From NCBI GenBank assembly GCA_014526335.1, contig JACTAT010000013.1:4966182-5030181 (forward strand): a DNA stretch of 64,000 nt. The letters are read 5' to 3'. Origin of the DNA: Chrysaora quinquecirrha (Eukaryota; Cnidaria; Scyphozoa; Semaeostomeae; Pelagiidae). The translations under genes were made by a program, and so were the position numbers. The notes under the pieces are model-generated. The model had not been told where the DNA came from. It saw only the letters and a list, made by a program, of their open reading frames with translations, and did not search any database. This document shows, piece by piece, positions 5,901 to 62,052 of the stretch; position 1 is the stretch's first letter; the number at the start of each line of letters is the position of its first letter.

Positions 5901-8900
5901 TTGCTTTGCCTACGACCTAACAGTTGGTTAAAAATAAAACAGATTGAAAATTACCTTTTCGGCTGGGCCGCCTGCCACACCATCGTACTCTCCACAAACA
6001 GCATGATGAACAAATTGACATTTCAGGTTGCCAGCATTTGTCACTGCAAAATCCCACGCAGCCAAAGCACCAGACCTTTTAACATATTCATTGCATAGCT
6101 CTTGTAGCTTGTTTCCTGCAACATTGCTCAAGCCACGTGCACATGGATTCTTTGAAAGATTAAGGTCACCCGATGCTGAATTTACAATCACATCAACCTT
6201 TAAAAAGAGAAAATATCAGAGCTATTGTGTGAGCTTCCTTTTCCGACAGGCTGTTTCTGACGTTGCCCAACTAAATATCAAAGGCTTGTCATGATAAGTG
6301 GTGACTATCATGTCTAATACACTGCAGAGTTCTGTTTTTTTGATCAACGATAACATGTAGAAATCCGGATATTTTATCCAAAGTAGCATTTTTAGCATAA
6401 TCGCGTCGATAAAAACGGAAATAATATAACGATTGTAGGTAGGAGGATAAGCATAGCTTAGTGTCTACATTTTTCGATACATCATCGACCAAACAGCGTC
6501 ATGTCTTCGAAATAAAAAAAACTTCGACAGTAACAAAAACGTACAACAATCAAACATCCAAACAGTCAGATGCTGACTTGGATTGGTAAACTAGGCTGTT
6601 GCTATCATGCCACTTCTCCTCTAGGTCAGCAAGCAAGTTGACTGAAGGCTTTCGAAAAGTGACAACGACAAGATCTGAGCCCATGATCTATTGATATTGA
6701 ACCGAACACCTTGTCAGTTCTTGCCATTGGCAAGTCAGCCAGGACAACACAGTTCCTTGCTGTATGCGACTGATCCGCTGGCTTCTTGATTCAGTGAAAA
6801 ACTCGATTTAAGTTTGACTTGAATTAAGGAATACAAATGTAAATGTAGAAATACCTGCTGCTGAGCCAAATCACCAACAACAACCTCAATAGCGATTTCA
6901 CTTGACGAAGTTCTTCTGTTAGAGGTATTAAGTGAATTATTTTCTTCTTCTGGGACGTTTGATTTAGCCCTGGCTTGTGGGATAGTTGGTCTACTCTTCC
7001 ACGAATAGCTATTGGTTGCTGGTGATGCTACTGGCTTTGGTTTTGCTTTTCTATAATTCCTTGATTTACCAAACATTCTGTCAAATTCTTTGCGAAATAC
7101 CTCAACCGTCTCATGATCATTATTCACAAAGTGAATTTCCCTAATTGCCTTCAGCGAATTCGACTCAGAAAACTGTAAGGCGGTTTTGACTAGAATCTTT
7201 GCACAGAGATCTTTTGGGAATCCAAAAACACCACTGCTAATGGCTGGAACAGCAACTGTGGTTAACTCTTCTTTATCGCATAGGATCAAGACCTCTTCCA
7301 TTGCTTTTGCAAGTTTCTCTACACATCTATCTTTTATACCCTGTAATTCACGCTCCCCAATGTACCTCATGCCAGATGGCCAACGTGGGCCAACAGCATG
7401 GATGACTTTTTTGCATGGTAGTGCTCCTCCATTTGTAACAACAGCTTTACCATCATCTACCTCTCCATGCATCCTGACGTATTCACGGCATTCATCTTGT
7501 ATTTCTTTTCCACCTGCAGATGATATTGCACCGGCAACACCAGCACCAAGCCATAAATTATTGTTCGCAGGATTGACGATTGCATCAACCTCATGACATG
7601 TTATGTCATCTTGAAACACACTAAGTTCAAGTCCTTGGTCCGTTCGGAACATACAGATCAAGTTAGACGCTGTGGATGTAGACGACTTACTCGGGCTGAT
7701 GCTCTTTCCAACCTCTTCGTCAGTAAAGCTTGAAGTAGTGTCTTTTGACTTTTCGATGATGACGACATTCTCTTCATTTTCAATGTTGCGGACAGCTTCT
7801 TTCATGTGTTTTCCTTGGAGCAGTTTTGTCACTCCTGGTCGTTCGAGTAGCATGTCTTCCCTGAAAATGTGCCGAGCCAATTCTTCCAAATGCTCTAAGG
7901 CAGCATTCACAGCATTACCAAGGCCAGATACGAGAATCCCAGAAGAATTGGAATTTGATTTGATTTTCACTGATTCTTCTTTTCCAGCGCGTTCTATTTC
8001 TTTGATTTCATATGATTTCAGCTTAAAAATTGCAAGGCTCTTGCCAACAGACGTACCAAACGTTTTTGTGTAAAACGAATTCTCTTGTAGAAATTCCACT
8101 ATTTGTTCTTTTGCTATATTGCACATCTGTAACTCCCCATTTATTTCAATATTCAATTCATCAAAGGAAATTGTCACGTCAATCGAGTCTTTCAAGTTAG
8201 CAAAAAATTTTGAACCTTTATTATTTGACAGGAGATTTCCTTGCTCGCTTGAGGCTTGTATATGCACATCACCATAATTTTCATCGAATATTTGAATGCC
8301 TCTTCTGAGGAAATCTTCTGTGAAAGCTGAGAATTTTATTTCTTTGCTTTGGTGATGAGCAGAAAATACTATCTTTGTGTTCATGGAATTGATTTTTCTG
8401 ATTGCATTTGCTCTTCTCCTTTGGTCTGATAGATTAATGCATAATCCTAGACTTCGTTGTAATGTGCGGTCAGTAGCAAACATGATTTTGCACATGATTT
8501 CATGTTGTATTTCCTTGATACTTGCTTTTTCTCCTGATAAGATGAGATCATTGTTGCTTTTTCCACTTTTACTCCAGAGTGCTTTTCAATCTCATCAAAA
8601 TAGCCTGTGAAGCTTAAAAGTTCAACACGTCTAGGAGGCAATGGAAAACGATTCTCAACAACGGCTTCTCTTTTCTTCCTCTCTTCTATACGTTCCATGA
8701 TTATATTTTCCATTTCTAATCTTTTTCTCTCCACTGATTCACGCTCTCCAGTGATCCGCATTCCTTTTGCAAACCTCTCGATAACACAGCCACTTGGATG
8801 CTTCATCATTTCCCTAACTTTTTTGTCGTCCTCAACTGCCGGATCGTAATCGACAAAAACAGAGACAAATCCGTCGTAGAACTGCTGAAACACACTTCTA

Positions 8901-11900
8901 GGATCAGAAACTTTTCGATCGGGTGTAAAGCATGCAAAGACTTTGGTCGTTTCTTTGTTGTTCTCTTGAAAACGTTCGCGCTTTTTGTATACATCAGACT
9001 TTAGAAGACTGTCAAATTCTGCCTTTCGGGTACTCAAGATGAAATCAAGAACGAAGGGATCAACTTCAATTTTCATTTCCTCTGGAGCTTTGTTTAGAAT
9101 ATTCCATGTGTGATCTAAGAAGGAAGGAGAAATAAAAAATAAAAATCAGCATGAAATACGCAGGAGAATAGCACTAATCAAACTACGTGTCTCGTTCGCG
9201 TTTTAAATAGGCTGGCTCAACGACGTCGTTGTCATCCTATAGGGAGCTGCAGAAGACTTGAAAACTCTCAAAGGGTCAACAAAGCTTACAAAGGGTCTAG
9301 CAGACTACCGCCACCTGACCCTACACCTATTCTTATACGTTAGCTAACGTACATTATATGGGATGATTAACGGAAACTAGTTAGCATAAGGTAACATAGA
9401 CTGATTTTTAAAAGTGGAGAAAGATCTGGATCTTACATGAAGAGTGAGCGAACATCAACATCTCATTTGAATAACTACTGAGCTGCCCAGGCTCAACAAA
9501 TTTGGGACAGCCATTTATAAAACGATCAATAACAGAGGGTCGATGACTTGAAGAATAAATGAATGAATGAATGAATGAATGTAGGCTACCCATTAAAAAA
9601 TGTTGACTTAAACAAGTAATCCATCCTAACAGTGGCAGCGGTGGCAGCATTTAGATCGGATCGCTACGATCTCAGAAGGAGATAAACTAACGAGGCATTG
9701 ACGTTCATTGTGACGCTGCCGTGGCTGAGGCTTGAACCCGGACCACATTTAACTCACTTAGCCATAGCGCATTCGTGGTATCAGAAATGACTCTCGATCA
9801 AAAACAGAAACAAAAGCATCGAGGATACACTTACCTGTCTCAAAATGTGGAATAAACTCATCGATTTTCAGCTCAGCACCATCAAGTACAATCCGGTTCT
9901 GAAGCACCTTCTCCGTTGCTGCAACAACAATATATTTTGTCAATAGATGCTACTTTGTAAGGTCGGCCTAATAGAGAGAAAAGGTTGCTAGAGCTTTGCA
10001 GTTAGATTCACTTACCTGCTCTGTCTGAGAACTGCACGATAGCATAACCGGTTCCTTCTTCATAAGCGACTTCCTGGACTGAGTCAAATCCAGCCAAGTT
10101 TGGTTTTTCCAATGTTAGCTGAAGTCCATCTAATGTTGTCTTGTCTGCTATGTTGCTTATCAACAGTGTTTTGCAAACTGGAACTTCCAAAATCTCTGTT
10201 TTTGAGCCATCCAAGCTGTTTCTCTTTTGGTGTCTTTCTTTAACGACTTTCCAATCTTAAAGAATAACAGTGACTTAGATAATTTAGCGAGCAGAAGGCT
10301 CAAGCTTCAAGTTGTTTTAAAAAGTGACATTAAAACCACAAAGTGAAATTTTAAAAAAAGTCGAGCATCGTTTTCTTGCATAAAAACATCAAAAATAAAA
10401 TATGATTAAAATCAAAATTAAACAAGCTCGTACCAATTTTGTTTGAGAAGACAGCCAGAACAGATTTTCTATCGTGGCTAAAAACAACTTCCTTCACTTC
10501 CAATTTTGAAATATTTTCAAGGTAGCATACCACAGAGTCGTGCGTAGTTGCTAGGTTGACATTTCCCAGTATCAGTTCGTTTTCTTTGATTTGTTTCTGC
10601 TGATACCTTCTCGCTTTTAATTTTATCTTTTCAAGAAGAAGATCATCTCTGGACAAAATACGATCGGCACCTAAATAAGGCAACGTGAATATTACCTTAG
10701 TCTTTAATCTTCACGGCAATAAACTCAAAAGTGACAAATAAGGTTTCTTAAAGGCGGTATTTTAATTGTTATTGCCTTAAAACTTAACAAACCCCAGTTT
10801 TCTGAAATTTGCATAAGTGCTATTTACTTGAAATTTGCTTGCGATTTTACTTGCAAGTGGCTTTCATGCAAGGATTTCACAGTGTTAATGGTCTTGAAAT
10901 TTATGTCATGCCTTTTACCCGTCAACTGAGCATGGGAGATGAAAATTTTACAAATGAATTCATAAAGATTTTTGCATACATGATCTTTGAAGCCTGGTTC
11001 TCATATATCGCAGACCGTCGGCGATCATGGCCTTGCGATGCTTACGATTTATGAGAACATGAATTTTCAATGATCGACGACAATCGTCGACCGTCGCCGA
11101 TGAACCAAAACAGTTTGTTTCTTGCGATCATCCGCGACGGAAAATCCATATGAGAACATCATTGGCGACCATCGGCGACCAATTCTTGGTCATATCAAAA
11201 CGAAGTTCTTCGTTTTCTTGGTCATACATTATAGCACAGGGCGGTGGATGATTCATCATCGCAGACAAGCAGGATATGAGACCAATTTCCTTTCATCAAA
11301 TATCCAGAGGGATACAATGAATCGCTAGCTTCATGCTCGTTTTTTCATGAACTATTTCTTTGTCATACAAACCTCAGAGAAACCATGACCCAAATCTATA
11401 GAAGACTTAGACTTATTACATGAGTCCCTCTCTTCGCAAACAGCAACAACAACAACAACTACAAACAGCTGTTTGAGCAGTTTTGAGGTCGGTCGTTAGT
11501 GTAATAAACAGCTGTTTGAGCGGTTTTGAGGTCGGTCGTTAGTGTAATAAATCTATAGAAGACTTCGTCTCTAGCACCTACGACCCAACTAACCCCGTGG
11601 TCCATGATTCCCTAAACAGATTCCTTCTAGACTAAAAGGCTAGGTACTTACTTTCTATATGACGAAATGTTACCAAGGGGGGAGACGCTGCCAGATCAGA
11701 TTTTTCAATCTCACCACCACCTGACCTTGCAGGGTTCTCTAAAAACAGCATCAACAGATCTTTATCAATATTTTCAATATTTCCATGAATTTCAACCGTT
11801 CTTTGGGTTTCATCTGTCTCTGTCTCATCTTCAACTTTGAAACTATCTTTTTTTTCGAATATGCTCACGCACATTTCGATGCCTTTATAAAAGTGTTTTC

Positions 11901-14900
11901 CTTTCTTCAATACTCTGTCTGCAACTAAAAAATGGAAAAGTAGATGGTATTTGAGTGATTTGCAATAAATAGCTTTTTAAGGCTCAGCGTCCAATCATGT
12001 TGTAACCTCTGAGAAACTAAGGCCCTGGCCAAACGATCAAACATTGTTGGTCAAACATTTAAATTTACCTCTCAGGCAAAATGCTTGACTGTTTGACCAA
12101 TGTCGCAAAACAATGCTTGTCAAACAATTTTGTTGGGCAAGCAAAACTGTTTTTGAACAAGTTAAACATTGCGCAGTGAATTTAGCTTATCTTTGATTGT
12201 CGAAAAATGTTTTGTGATCGTGGCCAAATGGTCAAACATTATTGTTTATAAAGCAAATCTCAAATGTTTGACAAACAATGTTTGATCGTTTGGCCAGGGT
12301 CTAATAACGACAGATTATCTGTGAATGTCTGACAGTGACAGATTAAAAATTTTCGCTTCCCAACTGCTATTTATAAACAGGTAATACAATGAAAGAAAGA
12401 CAAAATAGTGGTCGATTTCGGGGTCGTATTAAACCAGAACCGTTGGCTAAACACAAAAAATAACCTACAAATGTTAACCCAATTTTACCGTCCAGTATGG
12501 GTTTCGTCTATCGTCTCTTAGAATACTTTCCTTGCAAGAGCAAAACCCAAAAGTACTTCAGGTGAAAGTTCTAATGATAAGTCCTTACCATCTTGCTCTT
12601 TAAAAGTAATGATAAAATCACTATCTTTTTGTAATATTTCTTCAATGTCTCCTCCACCAGAGAGTCTTTCATTCTCAAAGAACATTTCCAATGCATCAAC
12701 ACCAAATTTGCCTGTGAAATTCCCAGTTACTGTAATACTCTTTTGAGGATTATCTGAAGGAACTATGATTGACAAGTCAAGCAATTTTCCTTTTATTTCA
12801 ACCCTTTCCTTCCTTAGAACTCTATCGACAACTGTGGAAAGAAAATGAATTTAGACTTTAATTTTCACTTGAATACTGACACCCAGAAGGTCCACAGAAG
12901 GCCTACACGAAAATTTTAGCTATGATATCGAAAAGTTCAAGGGGCAGTTGGACACAGTTATTATGTTTTAAAAAAATCTAAAAGTTTTTCGTTCTAAGAG
13001 AGGCTTCAAAATATTAGCAAAATGAAACTCACACTATGTCCTTAAATTTCAATCGCTTTGAAACTATTCATGTACAGTCCTTACACTCTTCAGGGTATGA
13101 AACAGTATCAACATGTCAAGTGAGGCTGGCTGTTCTATAAATTTTCTCAATTAAATGTTCTCAATATGTTCACACTTCTTCACTACTTAAGAAACAGCTA
13201 TTTTCCACCTAATTTGTCTAGAATGGCCCTAGTGAATATCAAGCAAACTCAGAAGAATGAAATGACTAGCAAAACCTTTTAACATCTTGAAGATGCTGAA
13301 TTAAGCCCGATTTTAGCGAGATCAGCCTGAGTTTGCTCTCTTGCTTTCAGTAAGATCAGCCTCAGTTTGTTCTCTTGCTTTCAGTAAGATCAGCCTCAGT
13401 TTGTTCTTGGCTTGTTCCTGTATTGTTTCCAAATACAGGCTCAAGTTCTTTTGAAATTGTTATAAAAAAAGGGTTTAACAATAGTGCAAAAGTCTATCTG
13501 GTCTATCTGATTCTGACGTTCAATCCTAAATAAGCTCGTAGACAAAAGAGCCTCTGGTTTGCTTTTTTGGTTTACTAAATTAACTCATTTGAAAATAACG
13601 AGAAATACTCAGTAACTCGCCTGCAGGATCCTTGAAGTCAATAATAGCAGAATTTCCGACCATTTCAACAGACTGAATTTCTCCTCCACCTGACTTCCTT
13701 TCATCTTCAAAGAAAAGCTCAATGTAACTCTGATCAAGTCCTTCATGCAGCCCTTTAACCATCAGTTTTTTGTGAGTTTTTTGCGTTGTTTTGTCTTCAG
13801 ATGATGAAGATATTATCGAAGCTGCTTCTAACAAGATAAAAAGTACTTTTATTTGTATAACTTAAAGTAGTTAATTACAACAAGCAACCACTCTTGGAAA
13901 AGGTCATTTCGCAAAAACTCAAATAAATGCAAAGCATAAAAAACTGACGTGAGTAATCAGTCAGTCTAATCATAACAATCATGATTAGACTGATTGATTG
14001 ATTGACAGATGACAGATGGTCAACAGTGAGGTTTTCATAAGTTTAAGATCTGGGACTGGTGTATTTAACAGGAGTACGGTCAATCATCCACACCAGAATA
14101 TGTCAAAACATATTCAGAGTGATCACAGGCTAAGAAGATTCAGCACTACAGACGTCTTTCGTTTTGTCTCGATTAAGTAGCGACAAACAAATACAGTTGA
14201 CATCCACTATCTCGAACTCTCAAGGGAAACTGGAATTTGTTCGAGATAGCGAATGTTCGAAATAACGGATGCCCCATATAAATATAAAAAATTATAGTTT
14301 TTAAGTCAGAAAAGGAACCCCTATTGACATGCAGGGTTACTGATCCCAAATTTCATCAAACAAGTCTGGTATTTTTTAACATAGGAGTCAAAGCTCATCT
14401 GCTTTCATCCCTACTAATGGTGAAATTGAGACAATGGCGATGCAGCACATCTCGAAAGAGAACAACTTCATCTATTGTAGACATGGGCAGCATATCACTT
14501 AGCTGCTGCCATTCCCGCTCCGCTAGGCGAACTTATACATATTTTCATCACCCCATGTAATGTCTGTGCAGTACGGTGGGGATGTGCAGTACGGTGGCGG
14601 ATATTCAGTACGGTGGGGGATGCCATGATTGCCGTGGGGAGGCATCTTGGAGTACGGTGGTGGATGTGCAGTACGGTGGGGGATACCATGATTGCCGTGG
14701 CGGATGTTCAGTACGGTGGGGGGATACCATGATGACTGTGGGGGGATACCATGATTGCCGTGGGGAGGCATCATGATTGCCGTGGCGGATATTCAGTACG
14801 GTGGGGGATACCATGATGACTGTGGGGATACCATGATTGCCGTGGGAGGCATCTCGGAGTACGGTGGGGATGTTCAGTACGGTGGGGGATACCATGATTG

Positions 14901-17900
14901 CCGTGGCGGATATTCAGTACGGTGGGGGATACCATGATGCCTGTGGGGATACCAAGATTGCCGTGGGAGGCATCATGATTGCCGTGGCGGATATTCAGTA
15001 CGGTGGGGGGATATCTCTGAGTACGGTGGGGGATGTTCAGTACGGTGGGGGTAAAATATGATCTAATCAACTAAATCATGGTAAATCAGAGACGGGGGCT
15101 AAATATTTCTGCTTCAGCAACAATCGTCGAGCCTCTCTCCATTTCAAGCGATATTCTTAGCTTCTCAAAGCTCAATGGGATACAAATGGGATACAAGTAC
15201 TTCGTTTCGCAAATTTTGGTTGATTTCAATACTCAAACTTTCTTGTTTCATTTTTTTATTACCAAAGTGCTAAAGAGCTACTTTGCAGATTGACGAAAAT
15301 ATCAAAATTTGAAAATTTCTTTTCCATAGTTTGTTAGTGTTTCTTAATAGTAAACGGATCTCATGGAATAAAGGCGAATATGTGAAAGAGATGTTTTCAC
15401 TGTTTAAAAGTACAGCATTTCATGCATAATTTTGCTGTGGCAAATGCAATTTTAACAAGTATTTGCTGGCAAGCTTTTGAAAACTTAAACGAAACAAGAT
15501 CGTGTACCTTGAGGCTTACGAAAGACGTTGTTTGAAGTGTAACGTAACCTCTCCAATTGTGGCTCCAATAACAATCACACAATTTGTCTTCTTTGAAGAG
15601 CTTTACATTGTGGGATGCGTTTATAAGTTGCAAATACTTGTAATATTCATCTTACCAGATTTCAACTAAATACTAAATGAAACCTCCTACGAAAACAGAG
15701 ACATTTTCATAAATGTTGATGTCGCTCGTTGCAAACTTTATCATTCAAGTTATAATGAATTGTCCAGAGTTTCAGCAATATTTTTGGGTTTTGAGTATAA
15801 TTCTAATTGTGTAACAAATGGACCGCCAATTCAAGCAATACTTGCTCAATGCACCAAGTAAGGCTAGCAGTTTGAGTATTGAAATCAACCAAAATTTGCG
15901 AAACGAAGTACTTGTATCCCATTTGTATCCCATTGAGCTTTGAGAAGCTAAGAATATCGCTTGAAATGGAGAGAGGCTCGACGATTGTTGCTGAAGCAGA
16001 AATATTTAGCCCCCGTCTCTGATTTACCATGATTTAGTTGATTAGATCATATTTTACCCCCACCGTACTGAACATCCCCACCGTACTCAGAGATATCCCC
16101 CACCGTACTGAATATCCGCCACGGCAATCATGATGCCTCCCACGGCAATCTTGGTATCCCCACAGGCATCATGGTATCCCCCACCGTACTGAATATCCGC
16201 CACGGCAATCATGGTATCCCCCACCGTACTGAACATCCCCACCGTACTCCGAGATGCCTCCCCACGGCAATCATGGTATCCCCCACAGTCATCATGGTAT
16301 CCCCCACCGTACTGAATATCCGCCACGGCAATCATGATGCCTCCCCACGGCAATCATGGTATCCCCACAGTCATCATGGTATCCCCCACCGTACTGAACA
16401 TCCGCCACGGCAATCATGGTATCCCCCACCGTACTGAACATCCCCACCGTACTGCAAGATGCCTCCCCACGGCAATCATGGTATCCCCCACCGTACTGAA
16501 CATCCGCCACCGTACTGCACATCCCCACCGTACTGCACAGACATTACATGGGGTGATGGTCTCGAGAAGGCCTGAATCATCATTTCTGATTAATTCTCCA
16601 ATATATGATTTGATATCAATATGATATGGTTCAACATCCAACATTACTTCTCTTATTTTATGACCTGGATGGTCCAAAACACCCTTCGCAGCTATGGGAG
16701 AACAAATGTTTAATTTATTATTTTACCACCAATACCATATTACGGCAAACATATTTCATTTTGAAGGTTAAGATTAATGTTTCTTATCGTAGTAGGGCGT
16801 GTAAGATAAACAATATTTCACGTCATGTTATATTGCATCGCAATGACGAAAGATCAAAATCGTCCCATAGGTATGCGACGATGAGCGAAAATACTGACAA
16901 CCGACACACCACAAATTTAAAAGACAAGGTGGTCAGAAGTGGAGATTAGAAATCTGCTAAACATGGTTCAGGGATAGAAAGATTTCTGAGGCAATAAAAC
17001 AGTTTGCAAGTTGGAGACCCAAGACGACCGATCAATATGAGCAGTACTGTCGAGAGGAGAATCCGACAGGGCAAAGGTTCGGGGTCTGGACTCGAAAGGG
17101 GCCAAAAAAATTTAAATTATCTTTATGCTTCCCCCCAAACAGTGAGTGGGCCTAAAAGGATACATTTCAACGAGTACTAGGAAAATTGCAATCAAATTCA
17201 CCTTTCTCTGTATCAAACTTGATAACAGCTTTTGAGTTTTGAATATCAATATTTTTATACTTCCTCCTCCATATCTTTCATTTTCAAAATAGAGCTGCAA
17301 TAGTTCCGCATCAATTTTTTCAGTTAGTCCTGACACCATTACTGCAGTTTCGTCATATGCAGATTTAGGATCATAAACTTTTACAACAGCGTCCTTTCCT
17401 TTGAAATTGGGCTGCTTCTCAGCTAGTACTGGAACAACTAAAAAAAGGCATCCAAGAAAGTGGCCGACAACAAAGAGAGGTGTTCTGACTCAATAAGGCT
17501 CACAAAATATCCTTTAAAATGAATCAGATTTCCAAGGGACTTCGATGAAAGCGATATGACTTTATGCGATCTCCAAAGAGAGATTTACCCATCAAATTGA
17601 AAGGAAACTTTTACTTGACAAAATGATACATCAAAACTTCTGAAGAACACCAATCAGTTCAGTCCAGGACCGTCAGAAGCTGGGGGGTTGGGGGCCTTCA
17701 GCCCCCCAATTATTTTTAAAGGCAATAGTATGGTGTCATAAAATCATTACGTCATCAAATACTTTTCAATTGTTCAGCCCCCCTCAGTCTGAGATTCCTT
17801 TGGCCTTGCAGTCTACGAATTCAAGAAGTCTTTTGGTTTAAGCACTATGCAAATAACCAATCTGCATAAATAGCAACATTTTAATAGACATTTTAAAGTT

Positions 17901-19609
17901 TTTGAAATCTAGAAATGTTGGGCAGAATATCCCTAGTACCAAAAATAAACATACAGAAGGGCCTGTTGGGCTTCCTGATCAGGAGTGTTTGTGTTACATA
18001 GCTACTTGGATAGTGGACTACAAAAAATAGAGCATACCTCCTGAATCAGTGAAGGTTAGCAAAAAAGCTCCAGAACAAATGCATTCAATATCTGCTACCT
18101 CACATTTTACACCTATATATCGAGGGCTTTCAAAATACAGCTGCAAGAATTCTTTGTCCACTTCTGACGAATGAAGAACCAGCAACTTTAGATTATCTTT
18201 CTTGGGTTCAATTGAACCTTAAAATTAAATATGGCAACAGATTACAATGTGATAAGGAGAACAAGAAATATTGTAATAGAACTGGAAGGAAATCTTATAC
18301 CTGTTTCAAAGGTTGCACAAAATTAGAGGGATGAAAAATAGTAGTTTCAGTGAGTACATGGCAATAAAATAAAGGCACGAGGGTCAAAAACAGAACAGAA
18401 AATAAAGGGGTATTGTCGTTAATACCATACTTGGATTAAATTCCAAGGGCAAAATTAATTTGAAAAATTTTTGGTTTGCGTATTTCAAATTTTTTATGCT
18501 GTTGTTGAATGAATCTACAGAAGGTTTTTTATGCATTCAACAGGGATAACATTCCATAGTCAGACTGCCCAGACAAAAAATAAGGAATAACAATGCAATA
18601 AGGAATGTGAATAAAAATGTGATGAAAAGACAGAACAACCTTCAGTAAGTTGACATGTGGAGTTTTCTGAAACAGCAGTTTCTTCATTGATTTTGTCCTC
18701 ACATTCATTTGCAGGTGGGTTGCATTCTGACAAAGATGAAACTCCTCCTTCCATCTCTGACTCGTGAAGGAAAATCTGGAATTGTTTTCCCATGTGACTG
18801 AATTGTCCTTTGGAACTTAAATTTCTGATAGCTGAAATGGAAAAAAAATAGAATAAGTTGCTGGTTTAATGAGAAACTTTAGATTATAATTGTCTTTTCT
18901 GAGAAGGAAAACATATTAAAAAACCGTGGCAAGGGGTAGGGATAAATTCCATCCATACTTAGTCTATTAACCTAAACCCAATCTTCTTGCTCTAAAAGTT
19001 CATTGGATATGAAATGGTTAAAGGAATACAAACAAAATCTAAAATGTTGCATTGTTCACCATTTCAACGGAAATTTTTGGCAATTGATCCGAAACAAAAG
19101 CAGCACTTTTATCTCCAAAGCTGATTAGGCAAAACAACTTTTTTATGTTTTCAACCACCATAAAAATTGCAAAGAAAGACAAAAATTCATTGGAAATTAA
19201 CGACATTTTCTCAAAACAGACAAAATATTTTGAGAAAAAAAGTAGGTATCAAAAAAGTTTTGTTGTAACAGATAGAATCGATCGACACAGATAACAAACT
19301 GTTTGAAACTCGGTGCTTACCTCCAGCATCCCGTATATCAACTCCAACTTCGAACTCATTTCCACTGAGAAAATCGACTTTAGTGAAGCGAAGACCTTCT
19401 TTGTTGGCAATCCCCATTTTATATTCACTGTCTAAAGCTTCTTTAATTAACTTCGATGGCTGCGAAGCTTTCAGAAATTCCTTCTCAGGCCAGATTTTCA
19501 GACGAAAAACAATCGAGCTGCTTTCGATTTCACCAACACTGATTTTGTCATTTTCCGTTTTTAGGGCTTTGCTTTCACCTTGTTGGTTTTTCTTCTTCTT
19601 TTTCGCCAT
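2047..19609 (-). CDS. PARP14: PARP14-like macro-domain mono-ADP-ribosyltransferase (16 exons)
   Basis: Exons on the minus strand, in transcript order: 19609-19321, 18831-18640, 18217-18038, 17437-17202, 16691-16548, 13827-13621, 12831-12589, 11924-11652, 10670-10434, 10255-10016, 9918-9835, 9114-6855, 6197-5955, 5369-3758, 2930-2577, 2306-2047. The predicted protein is about 2,350 residues. It begins MAKKKKKNQQ, continues with a run of RRM-like units, then a KH-like region, three macro domains, a WWE domain and a PARP catalytic domain. This is the vertebrate PARP14 order with a much longer RRM array. The family ADP-ribosylates proteins and nucleic acids and reads ADP-ribose, mostly in innate immune signalling. 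Exon phases match at all junctions if one base is added at each of two A5 runs (17252-17256 and 8558-8562). The exon 6 donor is GC (13620-13619). The middle of exon 5 and its donor are the least certain part because of the inverted repeat. Confidence 0.85.
3058..3440. mobile_element. MITE, Tc1/mariner-type, TA target duplication
   Basis: Terminal inverted repeats CTGTAAATCCTCGAATAAGC and its complement at the right end (ending GGATTTACGG) are flanked by TA on both sides. The interior repeats GGGGGCTTATTCGAGG-type blocks. It lies in the intron between exons 14 and 15 of the PARP gene. Diverged relatives are at 36490-36745, 60618-60706 and 62601-62790. Confidence 0.7.
3758..3992 (-). other. WWE domain of the PARP14-like protein
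   Basis: The end of exon 14 encodes YIQWFEVQRDG followed by an alternating polar and hydrophobic stretch ending in KIERKELTR, the pattern of a WWE domain (W and E residues near the start, strand-rich body). WWE domains bind ADP-ribose units. In PARP14 this domain lies immediately before the catalytic domain, as it does here. Confidence 0.75.
4457..4973 (-). other. Macro domain 3 (degenerate binding loop)
   Basis: Within exon 14, LEIDQGDITREMSDAIVV starts a macro fold and PAIGTGVIGK forms the second ligand loop. The Asn that normally follows DAIVN is replaced (IVVIGNEDL), and the glycine loop is FGGAVGKSI. In PARP14 and PARP9 the later macro domains are readers rather than hydrolases. The altered first loop suggests weak or altered ADP-ribose binding. 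Confidence 0.8.
5099..6905 (-). other. Macro domain 2, split over three exons
   Basis: The fold begins at the end of exon 12 (IAIEVVVGDLAQQQ), continues through exon 13 (6197-5955: VDVIVNSASGDL, then LQELCNEYVK and FVHHAV) and finishes at the start of exon 14 (IAFPALGTGTLKFP and KVKFVTYHAD). The phase is 0 at both introns. The VIVNSA loop keeps the Asn that contacts the distal ribose. The second loop has the usual GTG. Confidence 0.8.
6261..6330. repeat. Interspersed repeat fragment (ACTAAATATCAAAGGCTTG)
   Basis: The segment CCCAACTAAATATCAAAGGC followed by GATAAGTGGTGACTATCATG recurs at 23931-23998 in the same orientation and at 28015-28075 in the opposite one. It is a dispersed repeat of unknown class, inside the intron between PARP exons 12 and 13. 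Confidence 0.55.
7061..7634 (-). other. Macro domain 1 (intact ADP-ribose-binding motifs)
   Basis: Exon 12 encodes LSVFQDDITCHEVDAIVNPA and WLGAGVAGAIS, then CKKVIHAVGPRW and VAVPAISSGVFGFP. These are the two ligand loops and the surrounding strands of a canonical macro domain. The VNPAN Asn and the glycine-rich loop are both present, so ADP-ribose binding is likely. Of the three macro domains this one is closest to the family consensus. Confidence 0.88.
9646..9775. repeat. SINE-like fragment
   Basis: The stretch TGACGCTGCCGTGGCTGAGG, then CTTGAACCCGGACCACAT and CTCACTTAGCC, resembles the better copies at 21392-21560 and 56434-56545. Those copies look like a tRNA-derived SINE with a GTTCGAAC B-box. 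Confidence 0.4.
11393..11565. mobile_element. Small insertion flanked by a 16-bp direct repeat
   Basis: AATCTATAGAAGACTT occurs at 11393-11408 and again at 11550-11565, bracketing about 141 bp. Inside are a CAA microsatellite and a 43-bp tandem duplication (11466-11508 and 11509-11551, starting CAGCTGTTTGAGC). The flanking repeat looks like a target-site duplication of the length made by retrotransposition. It lies in a PARP intron. Confidence 0.5.
12021..12301. mobile_element. MITE with TAA duplication (Harbinger/Tourist-like)
   Basis: It starts GGCCCTGGCCAAACGATCAA and ends with the complementary TTGATCGTTTGGCCAGGGTC, flanked by TAA on both sides. The interior is rich in AAACATTGTTGG-type words. 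Relatives sit at 24578-24969 (TTA duplication), 32645-33050, 50314-50540 and 52337-52785 (TAA duplication). A three-base TWA duplication with such termini fits PIF/Harbinger MITEs. Confidence 0.72.
13321..13410. repeat. 34-bp tandem repeat, about 2.6 copies
   Basis: Units of 34 bp starting ATCAGCCT[GC]AGTTTG begin at 13321, 13355 and 13389. The third is truncated. They lie in the intron between PARP exons 6 and 7. Confidence 0.75.
14195..14290. repeat. Tigger-like terminal fragment
   Basis: TATCTCGAACTCTCAAGGGA and TTGTTCGAGATAGCGAATG match the termini of the mariner-type element at 53417-55678. Only one end is recognisable here. It sits just beyond the left arm of the large inverted repeat. 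Confidence 0.5.
14546..16558. mobile_element. 2-kb fold-back element: about 690-bp inverted arms around a 630-bp loop
   Basis: The left arm (about 14546-15239) and right arm (about 15869-16558) are near-perfect reverse complements. Each starts CATCACCCCATGTAATGTCTG at its outer end. The outer 500 bp are a minisatellite of CAGTACGGTGGGG, ATACCATGATTGCCGTGG and related words. The inner 180 bp are unique sequence (GACGGGGGCTAAATATTTC to GATTTCAATACTCAAAC). The loop 15240-15868 has no recognisable gene. No transposase is present, and I found no clear target duplication. It lies between PARP exons 5 and 6, and its outer end abuts exon 5. A related shorter array is at 21186-21345. Confidence 0.85.
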
Positions 19610-20258
19610 TTTACAACTGAAAATAAGCTTAAGTACTGTATTATGTCAGATTCAGATGATTTCAGACTCTCCGTTGATCCGAGCTCTTCACTGTGCAACA
19701 GCAGAAACTGAAAAGGGGGAGTTGACAGATGTCCGAAGTTTTTGTCCTTCTAGATCACATAGGGATACCAAAATCTAAAACAACAAGGGTTGCGATGATT
19801 AATTAAGACCACTAAAGAGAGCATATTTTGAGCTTGAAAACGCTCCTTTAAAGTAAAAATTAGTATCAATATTCAATAATCTATTTTTACCGCCCCAAAT
19901 GTCTGAACTGAATGACATTTCATTAAAAATCGTTTTGAAAAAATTGTCAACCCTATGGAATCTCAAAATGACTTCTTGGAATTCGCATAAGGTGGTTCCC
20001 CGAAGTCTTGAAATGACTTTCGCTTTCGAACTAAGAATTTCGGGACTTCCCCCTTAAACTTGAAATGTCTCTTTGTTTCTGGGTTTTTCATAATATTTTT
20101 TGTGATTAAAAGTATTGAAAAAAAAGAAATTATGGTTAAAACCTTTTCCCGAGAGCTAGTTTCTTTACCTCTGCAAGGAAGCGATTTTCAAAATTCCTTC
20201 CTTTATCACTTGTGAGGTGGAGTGAAATGAACTTTAGACTTTCATACATATAGGCAAA
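19610..20258. promoter_or_regulatory. Divergent intergenic region between the PARP14-like and glutaredoxin genes
   Basis: The two start codons (19609 minus, 20259 plus) face away from each other across about 650 bp with no other gene. A shared promoter is possible. I see no certain TATA box or CpG cluster. This call rests only on the head-to-head arrangement. Confidence 0.4.
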
Positions 20259-20837
20259 ATGGCGACCAACCAGTGGATGAGCTTCGTAAAAAAGCTGATT
20301 GCAAAAAACAACGTTGTTGTTTTCTCAAAATCTTTCTGACCATTTGCTTCAAAAACAAAGGAAATCCTAAAGTTAAATGGAGTGAAATCTTTTCATGTCC
20401 AAGAACTAGATCTCCATCATGACGGACCAAGTATCCAGGTCAGATGCATTTCATTATAGAACAGTCAAGATTTTGGGCCTAATTGGGCCTAAGCATCTTG
20501 TGGCTGTGGCAGGTAGATGATGCAGACCCCAGGCTGAGCTTGGTGCCTCGTGCCTTTCTTTCTTGCCAGTCAACAAGACTTTGCACCACACCTTGAATAA
20601 CTTCATGCTTCATACGACTTCATTCATAGTATCTCATCCCAGGTTCATGATTTTTGTTTAGGCCTGTTGTTTCTTTTTTCGCAGGACGCACTGAAATCTT
20701 TGACAGGAAAAGCAACAGTTCCTCACGTTTTTATAAAAGGAAAATTCATTGGTGGCGGGGACGAGACAGCTTCGCTGAATGCTTCAGGAAAGTTGCAAGA
20801 AATACTAAAAAACAATTCTCAAAATAAAGAAGATTAG
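20259..20837 (+). CDS. GLRX: Glutaredoxin with in-frame TGA at the catalytic cysteine (probable selenoprotein)
   Basis: Two exons, 20259-20438 and 20685-20837, joined in phase 0 by a GT-AG intron, give 110 residues, the usual size of a dithiol-type glutaredoxin. Exon 1 reads VVVFSKSF, then TGA (20337-20339), then PFASKTKEIL. In glutaredoxins this position is the nucleophilic Cys of CPYC or CPFC, so the TGA replaces exactly the catalytic residue, at codon 27. The second Cys of the motif is Ala, giving UPFA, a monothiol-like site. Exon 2 has the glutathione-binding TVPHVFIKGKFIGGGDE and a normal C-terminus. Nothing else is broken, splice sites are intact, and a SECIS-like hairpin follows at 20947-21029. 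I therefore read TGA as selenocysteine. The alternative is a pseudogene or truncated product from a single TGC/TGT-to-TGA change. Glutaredoxins reduce glutathione mixed disulfides. The gene is head to head with the PARP gene. Confidence 0.8.
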
Positions 20838-20946: not shown

Positions 20947-21029
20947 ATCAAGCTTTATGACGGAATAAACATAGCCTGTGCCATGCATGGAAGTTTACTC
21001 CTGAAAGAAATAATAATTTTTTGCTTGAT
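20947..21029 (+). promoter_or_regulatory. Candidate SECIS element in the glutaredoxin 3' flank
   Basis: A hairpin 110 bases after the TAG stop has the parts of a eukaryotic SECIS. The basal helix is ATCAAGC (20947-20953) with GCTTGAT (21023-21029). The non-Watson-Crick quartet is ATGAC (20957-20961) facing TGAA (21002-21005). The upper helix is GGAATAAAC (20962-20970) with GTTTACTCC (20993-21001), nine pairs with one A-C mismatch. The 22-base apical loop contains AUAGCC and can form a further mini-helix. The usual unpaired AA of the loop is not clearly placed. CC is present instead, as in a minority of SECIS elements. An AATAAA lies within the helix (20964-20969), so the real poly(A) site matters. 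Confidence 0.55.
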
Positions 21030-21345: not shown

Positions 21346-21391
21346 ACGGTTAATTCAGTTTCTGAAATTTGTGGAAGTAACTGAAGGTGAA

Positions 21392-21560
21392 GGTGAAATG
21401 GTGTTTTAGCGCCAGTCGCTAGGATCTCAGTAGTAGGTTAACTAATCGAGACCTCGACCCTGGCTGTGACGCTACCGTGGTTGGGTTCGAACTCTGACCA
21501 CACTAAGCTTCTGACACCACGAGTCAGCTAGATTACACCACGACGCCACAGCACCTTCAT
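21392..21560 (-). repeat. tRNA-derived SINE
   Basis: Read on the minus strand, GTGGTGTAATCTAGCTGACT resembles a pol III A-box region and AGAGTTCGAACCC a B-box, with tRNA-like spacing. Partial relatives are at 9646-9775 and 56434-56545. It is not an intact tRNA gene. Confidence 0.55.
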
Positions 21561-54600: not shown

Positions 54601-57600
54601 AATGGCAAGATTGAATGTTGAAGAGTTAAGACAAGGAAAACGAGGAAAGACTGCTGATGGTTGACAGAGGTCTAAGAAACACAAAGACAATACAGTAGTT
54701 CTAGTGAAATATGTTGACACAGACGTTTGAATATTTAGATTATATTGCTACAAGTTGAAAGAGACTTCACCGAAGCTATCATAATTTTGATGTTAGTTAG
54801 ACTTTATTATTAGCTTCAACTAGAGTGTTGGTTTTCATGTAATAACTTAGACTCATTGTAATGTTTTTGTAAGTTACAATTGATACATGAATGGAGATTA
54901 ATTACTCGAAATCTCTAGTGGTATTTCTCGAACAAAAGGTAACATTTTTCAGTGTCCATAAATTTTATGGATAGTTCAGGGACACTTTAGGGACAATCAG
55001 GATTCCCTATACTGTAGGAAATTAACCTTAAAATTTAGGGACGAATCATGGACGAGTTATGGACAATTCAGTGTTAAATTATGGACAAAAAATGGTCATA
55101 GTTTATGGACAAAAAACTCGATTGTCCATAATTATTGAGGACAAAATGTTTTACAGTGTATGCAAAAAACACCACCACATAAAGCATAATAACCCACCAA
55201 ATCAAGCATAATAACCCACCACCGTAGTGCGTATCCACCACAGTACGCAAAAAACGCCACCATAGTGCGCAAAATATACCACCATAGTGCGTATCATACA
55301 TAGTAGTGCGTATCCAACACAGTAGTACGTGTAGATTCGCAAGGGGGACAACAGCTGACCAATATGCAGTCTGTGTACAGAAAATCACACCATAAATTTA
55401 GTTCCTGAGTGCCTGTGGTAAATGGCAAGCGTGTAAACTTTAGAGATGGCAAAGGATTGAAAGTCCCTTGCAAGATAATAATTGTCGGATAACCTAAGTT
55501 GACATTAATCTTAAAAAATGAATTATCATTGTTATAATAAGTAAAAATTGAAAATTTTTGTGACGTTTTGTTCGAGATAACCGGGTTTTTCCTTATAGGA
55601 AAACGATGGGAAATGGGAATCTGTTCGAGATAGCGAGTTGTTCGAGATAACCGAGTTCGAGATAGCGAGGTTCGACTGTAATATAAGTACAAACTTGAAT
55701 GGTTCCAAACAGTACCGGCCAAAGAAACTTCGCTAAACTGGATGCAAAGGTGTTTTGCGAGGTCCTGGTCTAATCCAGCTCGCTTATGGTGTCAGCCGCT
55801 GCCCTCCTTTGCCCCGAATCGCTTCCCGCTGCCTGGATACCTTAACTATACACTTACTGCTAATGAAATCTGCCTAGAATGGAGATATGGCAATATAATA
55901 TAAATAGCATTATCACTTACTGCTTTCGAGGTATCCAGTATTCATTGCATCATTGTTGTCTTCGATTTGTTTTCGCAAGCTCGATACCAAATCAGGCAAA
56001 AAATAAGAAAGTTGAAAGGGACTTTTTGAAGTAGTCTCTTCTCGGTGTTCTTTCAAGATTCTCATGACCAAATCCTCGTTTTCAGCAGCAACATCTGATG
56101 ACGTAAAATACAAAACAGACTGCACTTGCGTGAATTTTAAGGCTTGTCTTAAAATGATGCTTTCTTCACTGATAATTGCCTTTTGCTTTCCAGCATCAAT
56201 CTTGCTGGTGAGCAATTTTGCAGCAACATTTCCTTCTTGTAATACGAAATCAACAGGACTGACAACACCAGATTTCGAACAAGGGACATTGCACATTATG
56301 ATTCTGACTTTCTTAAATCTTTCATCATTGTGTGCGATGTTAGTGAAATTGTCTTCAATCAGCTCGAAATCTGATTAGGAGAGTCAAGGGCGCTTTTCAA
56401 ACATTAAAAAATACACGTGAAGCTGAAGATAAAAATTAACGAGACCTAGACCCTGGCTGTGATTGTGCTGTGGCTGGAGCTCGAACTTCGACTAAACTAA
56501 GTTCCTGACACCATGAGTAAGCTGGATTAGACGACAAGAAACATTTGGAAATTAATCATACAACCTTTTTCTGAAACAAACTAGCAGTCGGGGTCACTAG
56601 TAGAAACTTCTTTCAAAACCCAAACACCATACCCGTCCAGCTTCACACTTGTTTATGAGTCTTTTGAGTTTATGAAACTTCCTTTTTTACTGATTCGGTC
56701 TTTTTCTAATGTTTTGAAACTGACAGTGTCAAACTAAAGTTTGAAAGAAACTGCTACGCAGAAAAAGCAGGACTCTATGACTTAGAGAGTTAACCGGCGA
56801 TTTCATTGAGCTCTCTAACGTTTATACTGATGTTCATGAGTGTCAAACGGAAAAAGTTTGAACGTTACCACAATGGTAGGAAGCTGCTTGTTTTGAAAAG
56901 GATACTCTTAACACCGCTTGCTATCATTTTCTGCTCCAGTTCTACACTCGACCGACTGTGACAGCCACAAATAAACAGCTTTCTCTCCGGGTTGATAAAC
57001 GCAGCAAGATGCGCCGACAAGGAAGCTATGAGGAATAGAACATTATTCATTAATTTGGAATATCTATTAGAATTGGAATTAAAACAATAGTCTCGCCTTA
57101 GAGAAAAGTATCAATATCTTCATGAAACAGCTTTTCATTAACCTTACTTTTACTGTCATTTGCTTAATTTCATCTTCATTAAACAGCGTCGTCTCCATTT
57201 TAAGTAACGTCATCTTTATATAACGATAGTCTTACCTTAAAGTAGCTGACAGCAATTTCATCAAACTAATGTCACTGTCAACGGCCTAATGTCATCTTCA
57301 TTGACCTAATTTCATCTTAATTATACGAGCATCATCTCAATCAAAGTAATGTAATCTTCACAAAACAATAGCATCATCTTAAACTAAGGTAGAGTCACTT
57401 CCATGAAGCTGAAAGTATCTTCATTAACGCAGTGTCAACTTCATGAAACTGATGCTGTTTTTTCTAAGACAACATTATCTTAAATTAAACCTACATTATC
57501 CTATATCTTCACTTAAACAAATAAAACTTATGCAGCAGAGTTTAACAGGATAACTTTTACCTGATTCAGGGTTTGTCAGAAGAACATCATCACCATCAGT

Positions 57601-60600
57601 CATAAAGGACTTCATTTCTCCAGGAATCAAAGAGCTCGCTTTGTCTTTCTGTGCCGCCATTTCTACAAGCAGGGACTTCATAACTTCTACAATGACGTAT
57701 TTTGATTTGTCCTTGAAAAAGCAAGTAAAGAGATTAAAGAACTTTTATACGCATGTACACATTCATTATACCCTACCCCTGACTGGGCAATATGAGAAGT
57801 TCTACTTCCAGGGGTGAAAAGGTAAAACAAATTGATTAAATAGCGATAGCTATTTTTTTGCAGACAAATTTGATTAACGTCAGCTTTTCTCGAGAGAACT
57901 CCTGAATATCGTGTTCCGAATGTCTCATAAGAAACGACGCAATAAAGAACATTGATTAACAAAACATAACAAGTCTAAGATTCTCTCTTCATAATCTCCT
58001 GCGTTACTAAATCAACTGTAATTATAGTTCACGTGGTGCAATCTCCTGATCATTATAATTTATGTTAATTTATTGATTGACAGCAACAACATTATACTGA
58101 AGTATCGTTAGCTTGGCTTATGGGGACCTACGATATACGATATAACTAACACCAACTAGCTGTAACTTGCTAACTTATGTCTACATGTCAACAGCTAGTC
58201 AGAACCTATAGGATACAATTGATCATGGTCACAAGAACGCTCAGGTCGGCTGCAACTGACGGGAGTCAGTGGTCAACTAATCGGGGACCAGCTGCCGTCA
58301 ACCTTTTTGCCAACAGGTTGCCAGAGCGCCCATTTCGACAGGTCAGTTGCGATAAATTAGTTACAAATATCAACTTGCTCTGACATTGCGCGAGGCCGAC
58401 AAAGCCTGGCTTTAAAAGTATCGTTCTAATTCGGTGCACAAAAACGGTCTTCAATGCACAGCAGCATCACGGTTTCGCACTTCTTCCCTTCTCGCTTCAG
58501 ATGTAACTTCATAGGTATGAGGGGGTCATTGGGCATGACGGTTTGCGGTTTTTCGACATTTTGAAAGCGGTTTTACGGTTTTAAACTTCAAAAAGTACGG
58601 TTTTTCGGTTTTCCAATTTGCGATTTCGGTGCGGATTTACGGTTTTAAGAAAACACATGTACGTTAGTACGGTTTTTGGCTAAAAAATTTTGCAGTTTTA
58701 CGGATTTTGCCCCCCTATGACCTCCCAGGTATTGCTACTGTGAAAATGTTGCTCTTTCGCATCAATTTTTCTTCAAAATCATCCGCATTGAAACGAGGCT
58801 TTGTCAATGCAACGTCACAGCGAAACAGAAACACAAATGCTCTCTTCGGGAGGAAAAAGCGAGGCAGAAAAGTAAGCCCAGAACGACAACAGGTAGATGA
58901 CCGTTCGATTACGTCCGTTTGAGCGTCAATAGCGATAGCTAACTATCACTCAGGTAATACGTCTATACGCTGTCGCTTAATAATTCCAAAGACACAATAA
59001 TATGATCATAGAAAACGTCAAAATTCAAAACGAATAAAAGAAGCAACAAGCTTGCTTACCTGTGGGTACAACCACAAATCCATAGTAATATTATGCGAAT
59101 AAACATCATCTTTACAGTCTTTCGAGAAAGCGAGCATATCATCGAAATGAGGATCTCTCCGAAACATTTTACCAGTCAACTCCATTAAATCACAAGTTTC
59201 AGCAAGATTAAATCCTTCATCTACTAGCATGTTAATTGCATTATCCGTACTGGACTTTAGCGTGTTCACTCTGGCGTACAACGGCTGTTGCCGCGCGAAT
59301 TTACCGGTCTCTTTCACGTCGGCAGATAGTAGATCTTCCAAACACAGCGCGCATTCCTTGATCCTGCTCCGTGCAAACGCTGCACATATGTGAATTTCGT
59401 GAGCTACTATCGCATCTTGAATCTCTCGTATAATTTCGATTGGGTTTTCTGTATCTTCAGCGATTACAATACGCTTTGAGTCACTGAATCTACAATTGTG
59501 TTCATAGAAGTCCATCAACATCACCATCACCTTGTTGTGGTGCCTTGCTTCAAACTAATAAGATGAAGAAGAACAAACAAGTTAGAGATAGCTCATACGT
59601 CGCGTTCCTGCCGTGCAGAACTAATCGCAATTAACGGGACTTCTGTGCGTGCTGCGCTACTAGGCTACGCACAATTTGGAGAAAAAAACCAGCGTCAATT
59701 TCAACAATAGTTTAAACTCTTATACACTGGCTACTGTTTTGAAGAGTTTTCAAATTCGGTAACTTTCAAAGTTTTCAACTCAAACCTTACAAACTGGCAA
59801 AACCACGTCTATTTCCAGGGTTTTGATTCAGAAAATGTTTCCGTGTTTCCAAATAAAAGCTTCTCCTCATTCAATGAAATGGTTTTGGAGGAGGATGTCA
59901 CACCACCCACCCCCTTAGTCATTTATCTGCTTTCAGGTAGATGAGGGCTAACAGATGTAGTACAAAAACTTAGCAATGAATTTGATGCAAAGAAAGAGAG
60001 CAACAATTAAACTGAAGAACATTAATTTTCAGCCACATTATTGGGCCCCCTGAATACAACTAGCACCAGCCAGGGGCATAGCATGGGGCACAGGGAGCAG
60101 TCCCCCTGTTAAAAGATGTCATGTCAGAATGTATTCCTCCTCTAAAGCCTTCATTTTGTGGTACATTACTTGTATTTGTAAGTTTTGGTTGGAAGGTAAT
60201 TTGGTTGGGGTCCCCTTAACCCCAACACTGTATATGCCTCTATATAGGTAGCTGAAATATTTATTCTTGCTTAAAATCACATCCAAAATCATATAAAAAT
60301 CTTCTTGGTACAAAATAAATGGAGATTCCAGCCAAGGGTGTACACAAGATTCAAAGGAGTGAAGTGAATTGCCCCTTGGTGGCAGCCCCAAGCATTACCC
60401 CTATGTTAGACAAGGTTTTCTCACCCTAGAATATGCTGAGTAGAAGTGGCTGTCCAGTAACACATCTTTTAGAACTTCCTCATCTGAAACCAGAAAAATG
60501 TTTTTATTATAAATATTATTACAAATATTATAAAAGGTCACAAGTATGAAGATGGGGTCATGCAGGGCAAAAGGTCCACTATATCAAACCCAGGAGCGTT

Positions 60601-61280
60601 TCACCACAAATCGTTGAATTGCCCCCCCCTTGAATAAGCCCTCCCCTCCAAAGTAATGAAAAGTAATTTAGCCCTCAGGGGAGGGCTAATTCAAGAATTT
60701 ACTGCAAGCTAGTAATGTGGTAATGTGCAGCAAGCGCTGCACACAACAAAAAAACTGTACAAAAACAATGAGACAAACAAAGGAAAAATAATAGCATAAA
60801 CAAAATTGTTTGTTTACATCGTTTAGTGCAAAAAGCAACACTGTAAGCCCTTCTCTTCTGATATTCATCAATAAACGATGGGATTGATGCAGAAGATATT
60901 TCTCCTTTTAGATAACTGAATATTTCTCCAGCATTCTCGTACATTTTGTGACTGAACTTGTTTCTTGGGGGTTTTTGCTCTCTCTTCTTGCACTGTTCTT
61001 CTCCTTTCTCGTCCTTCTGAATTCCCATAGGACCAATCATTTCCTTCACATCTGATAAAATCCCTTCATAGGTCCCATTTGGTTTGCTTGACGATGCCAG
61101 GTTCAATTCAGAATTCTTCTTTGAAGATGACTGCTCGCTGTTCTTCCCATTTCCTCCAGTTCTTGAACCTCCATTAGGCCTGTTTTTCTTGCTGTTTGAC
61201 TTAGGCCGAGGACTATTTTTACTCTTTCGTCCATTTTTCGGTGACTTTGGAGGAAAGCTGTCATCACCTGGCCTAAGCAT
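51617..61280 (-). CDS. NSUN7: NSUN7-like RNA cytosine-methyltransferase family protein (8 exons)
   Basis: Exons: 61280-60818, 60483-60425, 59554-59060, 57711-57561, 57025-56906, 56370-55921, 52950-52880, 51817-51617. They sum to 2,010 nt, or 669 residues, and every phase agrees. The order of conserved blocks is that of animal NSUN7: YSVAFCTKRYEEVLKD (exons 1/2), QPLYARVNTLKSSTDNAI (3), DKSKYVIVEV and DDVLLTNPES (4), KLFICGCHSRS (5), KKVRIIMCNVPCSKSGV (6), KLKPSSYMNGCFVALLKR (7), EPTVKEVIERANKKGL plus a basic tail (8). The family is related to m5C RNA methyltransferases. Vertebrate NSUN7 is linked to sperm motility and enhancer RNA. Here motif IV PC is kept (Cys 56279-56281), but the motif VI TCS is TSS (Ser 56099-56101), and the SAM loop is degenerate. 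The N-terminal Ser/Lys-rich tail is unconserved. A repeat-laden 2.97-kb intron separates exons 6 and 7. Confidence 0.88.
51998..52140. repeat. Mariner/Tigger-like terminal fragment
   Basis: GCTATAACTCGAACCTCTAA and TTCGAATTATGGGGACTC with GATAACTCGAAGTTAACGG resemble degenerate ends of the same kind of element as 53417-55678. Confidence 0.45.
52337..52785. mobile_element. MITE of the GGCCCTGGCCAAACG family, TAA duplication
   Basis: It starts GGCCCTCACCAAACAATCAA and ends TTGATCGTTTGGCCAGGGCC, with TAA at 52334-52336 and 52786-52788. It is one of the longest copies and lies in the intron between NSUN7 exons 7 and 8. Confidence 0.72.
53657..55158. mobile_element. Nested TIR element, CACTGTAAAACA ends, TA duplication
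   Basis: Exact 12-bp inverted ends CACTGTAAAACA and TGTTTTACAGTG are flanked by TA. Subterminal blocks repeat the theme of GTCCCTAAATTGTCC on the left and TTATGGACAATTCAGTG on the right. A short plus-strand open frame (54296-54544) shows no transposase motif, so the element looks non-autonomous. Confidence 0.72.
55160..55345. repeat. CCACCACAGTA minisatellite copy
   Basis: Units of CACCACCGTAGTGCGTATCC and ACCACAGTACGCAAAAAACG end in GTAGATTCGCAAGGG, a degenerate form of the terminal motif at 165-514 and 36754-37345. It directly follows the nested element. Confidence 0.7.
56434..56545. repeat. SINE-like fragment
   Basis: ACGAGACCTAGACCCTGGCT, GGAGCTCGAACTTCGAC and CTGACACCATGAGTAAGC match the copy at 21392-21560. 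It lies just upstream of NSUN7-like exon 6. Confidence 0.5.
57150..57490. repeat. Degenerate short-unit repeat (TCATCTTCATTAAAC theme)
   Basis: About ten diverged units of roughly 30 bp carry [AT]TGTCATCTTCATTGACCTAA-like words. They fill the intron between NSUN7 exons 4 and 5. Confidence 0.55.
60290..60378. repeat. MITE-like repeat, copy of 27041-27175
   Basis: GGAGATTCCAGCCAAGGGTG, ACACAAGATTC and GGAGTGAAGTGAATTGCCCC match the right half of the family. Confidence 0.5.
60618..60706. repeat. GAATAAGCCC-type MITE fragment
   Basis: TTGAATAAGCCCTCCCCTCC and GGGGAGGGCTAATTCAAG form a small inverted pair related to the element at 3058-3440. It lies in NSUN7 intron 1. Confidence 0.55.
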
Positions 61281-62052
61281 GATTTTAAATCACTCTGCTT
61301 TATTTTTCAAAGAACAGAGAACCGAATCGTGATTTATCCAGGCGTTAATTGTTTGCGATTCCTGTTCGACTTGTTTAGCAAATGGTTGTCTAAACATTAC
61401 CAGGACAACGTTGCGGTTTTATTTGCAGAAGCCTTCAAAAAGTCAACAGAAACTATATCCAATGGACAGATTGTTTTCCTCCAGCAGAAAATGGTCTGAC
61501 TTTTTGCTCCAGGTAAAAGCATAAGTTTTTGCCGCATAAATTTTGCCTCAAAATTCAGGAAATCAATTTGACGAAACAACACAAGCTTGCGTAAATCGCG
61601 GTATTGCGGTAAAAAATAACGCCGCAAATATAAAGTTGAAATCAGCGTTTTCATAATTGTTCATCCCTAAAAATCTTTCTTTCATGAATTAAACATTAAA
61701 ATGCGGCACAAATGAATTATTTACTTCAAAACTGGCGAGATAACAAGCAACAAATTGTAGCTGCTGTTCGCTTCGCCAGGAGTTGGAAAGCGAAATGGAG
61801 GAGCGGAGCGGTGGAAAGAAAAGTGAACGACGACGTTTAATTCAAAATAGCAGTCCTCAAAGAAAATTACCATGCTAATTTCGAATTGCAGGAATAAATG
61901 AGATATTCATATCATTAATTTGAAATATATCTTTGCACTTATAAAGGCATATTGCAGATAGGCTAGATATAAAATTGTGCACACAAGCCGAACCTAACAA
62001 AAGCGGGTTTTCTTGTTTCGACGGTTTCGACCTTCCCCACCAGACGAATTCA

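Follow-up and report, generated by a model that had tools for sequence, protein, structure and literature searches.

The 64,000-nt window, the whole stretch of DNA analyzed here, carries a two-exon glutaredoxin (Grx) gene on its forward strand (Table 1). The spliced frame measures 333 nt and is interrupted by stop codons at only two places, codon 27 (TGA) and codon 111 (TAG). With Cys put for the TGA, the protein matched Pfam family PF00462 (Glutaredoxin; E 1.9e-16, 60.4 bits versus a cut-off of 22.9). The best match among solved glutaredoxin structures was 5zvl_A (E 1.9e-21), in which the first Cys of the CPFC site lies opposite codon 27; Thioredoxin-glutathione reductase (TGR) was also among the solved-structure matches. 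The second active-site Cys position is occupied by Ala, so the site would read U-P-F-A. Lys24, the TVP motif, and the GGGD motif are all present and presumably form parts of the glutathione site. The profile match and the TVP/GGGD motifs point to a class I glutaredoxin, which would possess a nucleophile at its active site only if the TGA encodes selenocysteine (Sec). By our own arithmetic, a single stop placed at random among the 110 codons has a chance of ~1/110 of falling at codon 27. An earlier note on this DNA had described a two-exon, 110-codon glutaredoxin with a clean GT-AG intron and a single in-frame TGA, a description confirmed by the spliced frame, the PF00462 match, and the structure matches; its details of 110 codons, TVPHVFIKGKFIGGGDE, and a UPFA site without a second Cys are equally correct.

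Table 1 Features of the glutaredoxin locus and its surroundings (window positions).
Feature	Positions	Strand	Description
Grx exon 1 (codons 1-60)	20259..20438	+	ATG at 20259; Pfam PF00462
In-frame TGA (codon 27)	20337..20339	+	Nucleophilic Cys position; Sec reading would give U-P-F-A
Grx intron	20439..20684	+	GT-AG, 246 nt
Grx exon 2 (codons 61-110, then stop)	20685..20837	+	TVP and GGGDE inside; TAG stop at 20835-20837
SECIS candidate	20957..21006	+	ATGA (at 20957)/GA quartet, 12-position helix II, 9 standard pairs, 18-nt apical loop starting AGCC
NSUN7-like neighbor gene	55913..61289	-	35 kb downstream of Grx

Head-to-head with the glutaredoxin lies the first exon of a large minus-strand gene (~2047-19645), the two start codons being ~650 nt apart. 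This gene is PARP14-like by eye, with macrodomain-like stretches, repeated short domains, and a PARP-like 3' end; a Pfam search of its first exon gave no match. Two related tandem arrays in opposite orientation (14588-15051 and 16057-16519), ~1 kb apart and built of units of ~40, 62, and 82 nt, e.g. ATTCAGTACGGTGGGGGATACCATGATTGCC, are located, in our reading, between exons of this large gene. Another tandem array, at 36740-37312, consists of nine 64-nt units with 92% matches. For the NSUN7-like gene, 13 matches were found among 7998 scored candidates (those with most words in common), the best being EukProt record gene7536-8373_t at 78%, followed by records at 56, 49, 44, 41, and 41%; the best named matches came from Acropora muricata (40%) and Nematostella (39%). 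The animal assignment of the glutaredoxin is based on these matches, which point most likely to a cnidarian that is neither a stony coral nor a sea anemone. The record number of gene7536-8373_t is close to that of a glutaredoxin relative described below (P0002, number 7531), suggesting a conserved Grx/NSUN7-like gene order, where the assignment of both records to one EukProt species rests on a name format that P0030, protist-like by eye, also has.

A protein search with the single glutaredoxin sequence returned 10 proteins, and a search with a four-member alignment returned 94. Aligned with the window protein, 88 of the 94 have Cys in the codon 27 column, which, together with the alignment to 5zvl_A, confirms the earlier placement of the TGA at the nucleophilic Cys of CPFC. 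The six exceptions comprise three fragments without the codon 27 region (P0003, P0091, and P0093), which were left out of the tree, and three proteins in which this position is either W (P0001) or lies in a missing or garbled segment (P0002 and P0009). In a FastTree phylogeny of 92 sequences (95 less the three fragments), the window gene groups with P0001, P0002, and P0009 in a clade with a support of 1.0. These relatives are 51-70% identical to the window glutaredoxin in the alignment and, taking their protein records as they stand, a readable Cys at codon 27 is missing from all four clade members.

The three clade-mates depart from Cys in different ways. P0001, a 107-residue protein from a JGI contig (SKSFWPFAARAK), aligns with 92% of the query at 61% identity and is conserved on both sides of codon 27. 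A gene caller working under code 4 prints TGA as W, and the W of P0001 may represent such a TGA, though TGG is possible. P0002 (EukProt gene7531-8370_t) is 70% identical where aligned, with INFVK joined directly to KTKDIF and the 20-residue stretch in which the TGA would lie absent, a gap that looks like a gene finder splicing round a stop. P0009 (EukProt gene279-9929_t) matches well on either side and is garbled across the active site; at the protein level, both P0002 and P0009 are conserved in part. The earlier note had proposed, as a check, that TGA in some orthologues and a Cys codon in others would support Sec; such an alternation was not seen, all three clade-mates being without a readable Cys. 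It had also named loss of the frame in related species as a sign against its reading, and the protein records indicate that the protein is kept in the relatives. Among the 94, Ala replaces the second Cys in two, P0001 and the Cys protein P0051; the latter (C-P-F-A) was considered as a Cys orthologue and rejected, as it falls outside the clade in the FastTree phylogeny.

The last 50 residues of the fragment P0003, from a 2012-base NCBI contig, are identical to the protein encoded by window exon 2 and are preceded by what appears, in a by-eye comparison, to be a diverged version of the end of the intron. The nearest Cys glutaredoxins in the own genome (a 328-Mb assembly of 740 contigs) are the paralogues L040 and L041, which have a CPYC site and, across 64 residues, are 50 and 48% identical to the window protein. 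Scanning a contig collection with A1 gave 36 loci, bacterial glutaredoxins of at most 43% identity, which were set aside, and none of 63 pattern stretches in viral contigs was a relative.

The genome contains several components for Sec synthesis and use, among them tRNA-Sec, one of the three (with SBP2 and EFSec) whose absence the earlier note had listed as an argument against its reading. Two tRNA-Sec copies were found, each at 79.1 bits (gathering score, 47), and ARAGORN calls both loci tRNA-SeC with anticodon tca. A further 46 matches fall below the cut-off, most of them (39 to 44 bits) in close series on contig C290 at ~14.48-14.50 and 14.83-14.84 Mb, which are probably clusters of another tRNA gene. 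Exon matches to SepSecS numbered 12, on contigs C320 and C502, and probably represent two copies or two haplotypes. GPx was found at ten places; six have an in-frame TGA, accompanied in two cases by a TAA, and in all four sites read (L055, L056, L060, and L061) the TGA occupies the Sec place within NVASF*G or NLASQ*G. The Rdx family (PF10262) had no match in the own genome, for which split exons are a likely reason.

A candidate SECIS hairpin begins 120 nt after the glutaredoxin stop. Flank and window were scanned for RTGA...GA hairpins, and the near 3' flank holds one plausible site, the candidate of Table 1. The other two candidates of the first flank scan, at 21387 and 22950, were dropped for a 4-nt loop and for three helix pairs, respectively. 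The wider scan of both window strands gave ten such hairpins, five of them inside the two tandem arrays. The Rfam SECIS models matched neither at the glutaredoxin (E up to 10) nor in the stretches of any of six GPx loci (E up to 5), and their silence at the latter makes them uninformative at the former. In a structure-only score, the glutaredoxin hairpin reached 9.9, where 80 background window stretches have a median of 8.5 and a 90th percentile of 10.8; the hairpin of GPx locus L065 (10.6) likewise lies within background, and those picked at L066, L067, and L068 scored 11.5 to 13.8. At L068, a hairpin with AAA (11.5) was used instead of the top-scoring one (14.1), and no hairpin was chosen at L064 or L069, the latter containing a run of N. 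On structure alone, the glutaredoxin hairpin is unremarkable. Two similar Sec GPx loci, L066 (3401, 3553) and L067 (2385, 2538), have two SECIS-like hairpins each; PMC3473315 mentions that one GPx gene of Nematostella carries two SECIS elements.

Comparison with the L065 GPx hairpin singles out the same site. When the 52-nt L065 hairpin was slid along both window strands, the single best match fell at position 20956, with 31 of 52 positions identical and 29 at the next-best site; a 56-nt version also matched best at the glutaredoxin hairpin, with a narrower lead (31 versus 30). The four other GPx hairpins tested by sliding did not pick out this site. As a null, 400 random 52-mers were drawn from the six GPx loci; 32 matched best or tied in the 300 nt after the glutaredoxin stop, 30 of which consisted entirely of N. 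With these 30 removed, two of 370 remained, both at 30/52. The glutaredoxin and L065 hairpins have in common a 12-mer and an 8-mer as well as their spacing and geometry, and the pattern ATGACGGAATAA-N18-30-TCCTGAAA occurs twice in 328 Mb, at these two sites, with no match for a backward control. The chance expectation is ~0.02 matches in the genome by our own arithmetic, and one of the two matches is present by construction, the pattern having been written after both hairpins were known.

Compared in ungapped register (MAFFT alignment A2 introduces a gap that throws the 3' arm out of register), each hairpin has a helix II of 12 positions, 9 of them paired, and a loop of 18 nt, and the pair at helix position 9 is reversed between the two, A-T versus T-A. 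A eukaryotic SECIS carries AUGA...AA...GA; the apical loop starts with AAAC in L065 instead of the AGCC of the glutaredoxin hairpin. Replacement of AA by CC occurs in some animal SECIS elements (SelM, SelO). The L065 hairpin lies ~730 nt beyond its GPx stop and is itself no more than a likely SECIS of that GPx; the glutaredoxin hairpin is a candidate SECIS element. An AATAAA at 20964-20969 lies within it, and polyadenylation there, if used, would cut the hairpin. A common dispersed repeat, AGGTGAAATGGT.TTTTAGCGCCAGTCGCTAGGATCT, is carried by the downstream flank of the glutaredoxin (~21380-21430) and by an intron of the L065 GPx (reverse strand, ~1035-1085).

From these sequence comparisons, the window glutaredoxin is very probably a working selenoprotein gene in which UGA codon 27 is decoded as Sec. 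The earlier reading of a Sec glutaredoxin with a UPFA site is supported by a clade without a readable Cys, by the tRNA-Sec, SepSecS, and TGA-containing GPx genes of the genome, and by the matched hairpin. In the mechanism we propose, Sec would be made on tRNA-Sec by SepSecS and inserted by the ribosome at codon 27, presumably directed by the 3' UTR hairpin 120 nt past the stop, to yield a class I glutaredoxin whose active site reads U-P-F-A. Its selenol would attack glutathionylated substrates (or peroxide), a selenenyl-sulfide would form with glutathione held by the K24/TVP/GGGD site, and a second glutathione would release the selenol. The resolving Cys is absent, which leaves only the one-residue (monoselenol) route, and dithiol reactions could be left to the Cys paralogues L040 and L041. 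PMC10298544 reports that glutaredoxin gains GPx activity when selenium takes the place of its sulfur, for which Casi 2008 is also cited, and this makes peroxide removal a fair second role.

No damage is simpler than one nonsense codon, and the gene might instead be a pseudogene, inactivated when a Cys codon became a stop but still intact elsewhere; Cys paralogues are available to carry the function, and the SECIS is still a candidate. We consider this improbable, given that the relatives in the clade, at 51-70% identity, likewise show no readable Cys at this position, that the exon 2 protein is identical in P0003, and that the sole genome-wide partner of the GPx hairpin pattern sits just 3' of the glutaredoxin. 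The disturbance of three other records at the very same codon (by W, omission, and garbling) speaks against a sequencing or assembly error for TGC or TGT in an ordinary C-P-F-A glutaredoxin. Although one genome copy stands behind the codon, such an error would also reduce the hairpin match to coincidence, and we regard it as very improbable.

Least probable of all is readthrough of the UGA with another amino acid, for instance Trp or Arg, and no SECIS. The W of P0001, taken at face value, would agree with it, as would the C that follows the UGA, a leaky stop context. However, a glutaredoxin with neither Cys nor Sec here should be inactive by known chemistry, and Sec insertion is the simpler account given the Sec system of the genome and the hairpin. 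Beyond the Sec reading itself, we tentatively suggest, as a scenario that is rather doubtful in its full form, that the gene belongs to a lineage-specific group of animal (cnidarian) monoselenol U-P-F-A glutaredoxins that acquired their SECIS from a GPx gene and act mainly in deglutathionylation or in removing peroxide with glutathione, not in disulfide exchange.

If the Sec reading is true, glutaredoxin joins the animal selenoprotein families, and the window gene is a natural counterpart of engineered selenoglutaredoxin. Such a gene is easily missed because gene finders stop at the TGA or splice round it, and the P0002 and P0009 records look like examples of this mis-annotation. It would also be a selenoprotein gene whose SECIS resembles a single GPx hairpin from its own genome, so that ideas on how Sec is gained by genes could be put to the test.

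Several known proteins bear comparison with the window glutaredoxin. The dithiol glutaredoxins L040 and L041 also keep VP.VFI.GK.IGGG, but their site is Cys-Cys and their exons break near codon 72, whereas the window gene is broken after codon 60. TGR likewise contains a glutaredoxin domain and is an animal selenoprotein, yet its Sec lies at the C-terminus of a reductase, whereas the window protein is a lone domain of 110 residues. In bacteria, the SECIS lies in the coding region. Selenoprotein glutaredoxins are reported from a few bacteria (Kim 2011, cited in PMC13188914) and likewise have Sec at the first active-site position; their motif, listed there as UxxC and in the text as U/CXXC/S, differs from the UxxA of the window protein, whose gene is spliced and has a SECIS candidate in its 3' UTR. 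For animals, PMC3473315 gives 21 selenoprotein families in six marine invertebrates, including Nematostella (30 genes), with no glutaredoxin among them, and our search of open-licence main texts, as far as these were available (including PMC13059024, PMC10298544, PMC2398784, PMC11007844, and PMC3281104), found no animal Sec glutaredoxin. The closest parallel in eukaryotes is the algal Sec-containing form of glutaredoxin, which PMC7539508 places in SAR algae and haptophytes and not in Plantae, in contrast to the animal gene described here. A Sec glutaredoxin is therefore a known kind of protein, of which the window gene may be the first animal case.
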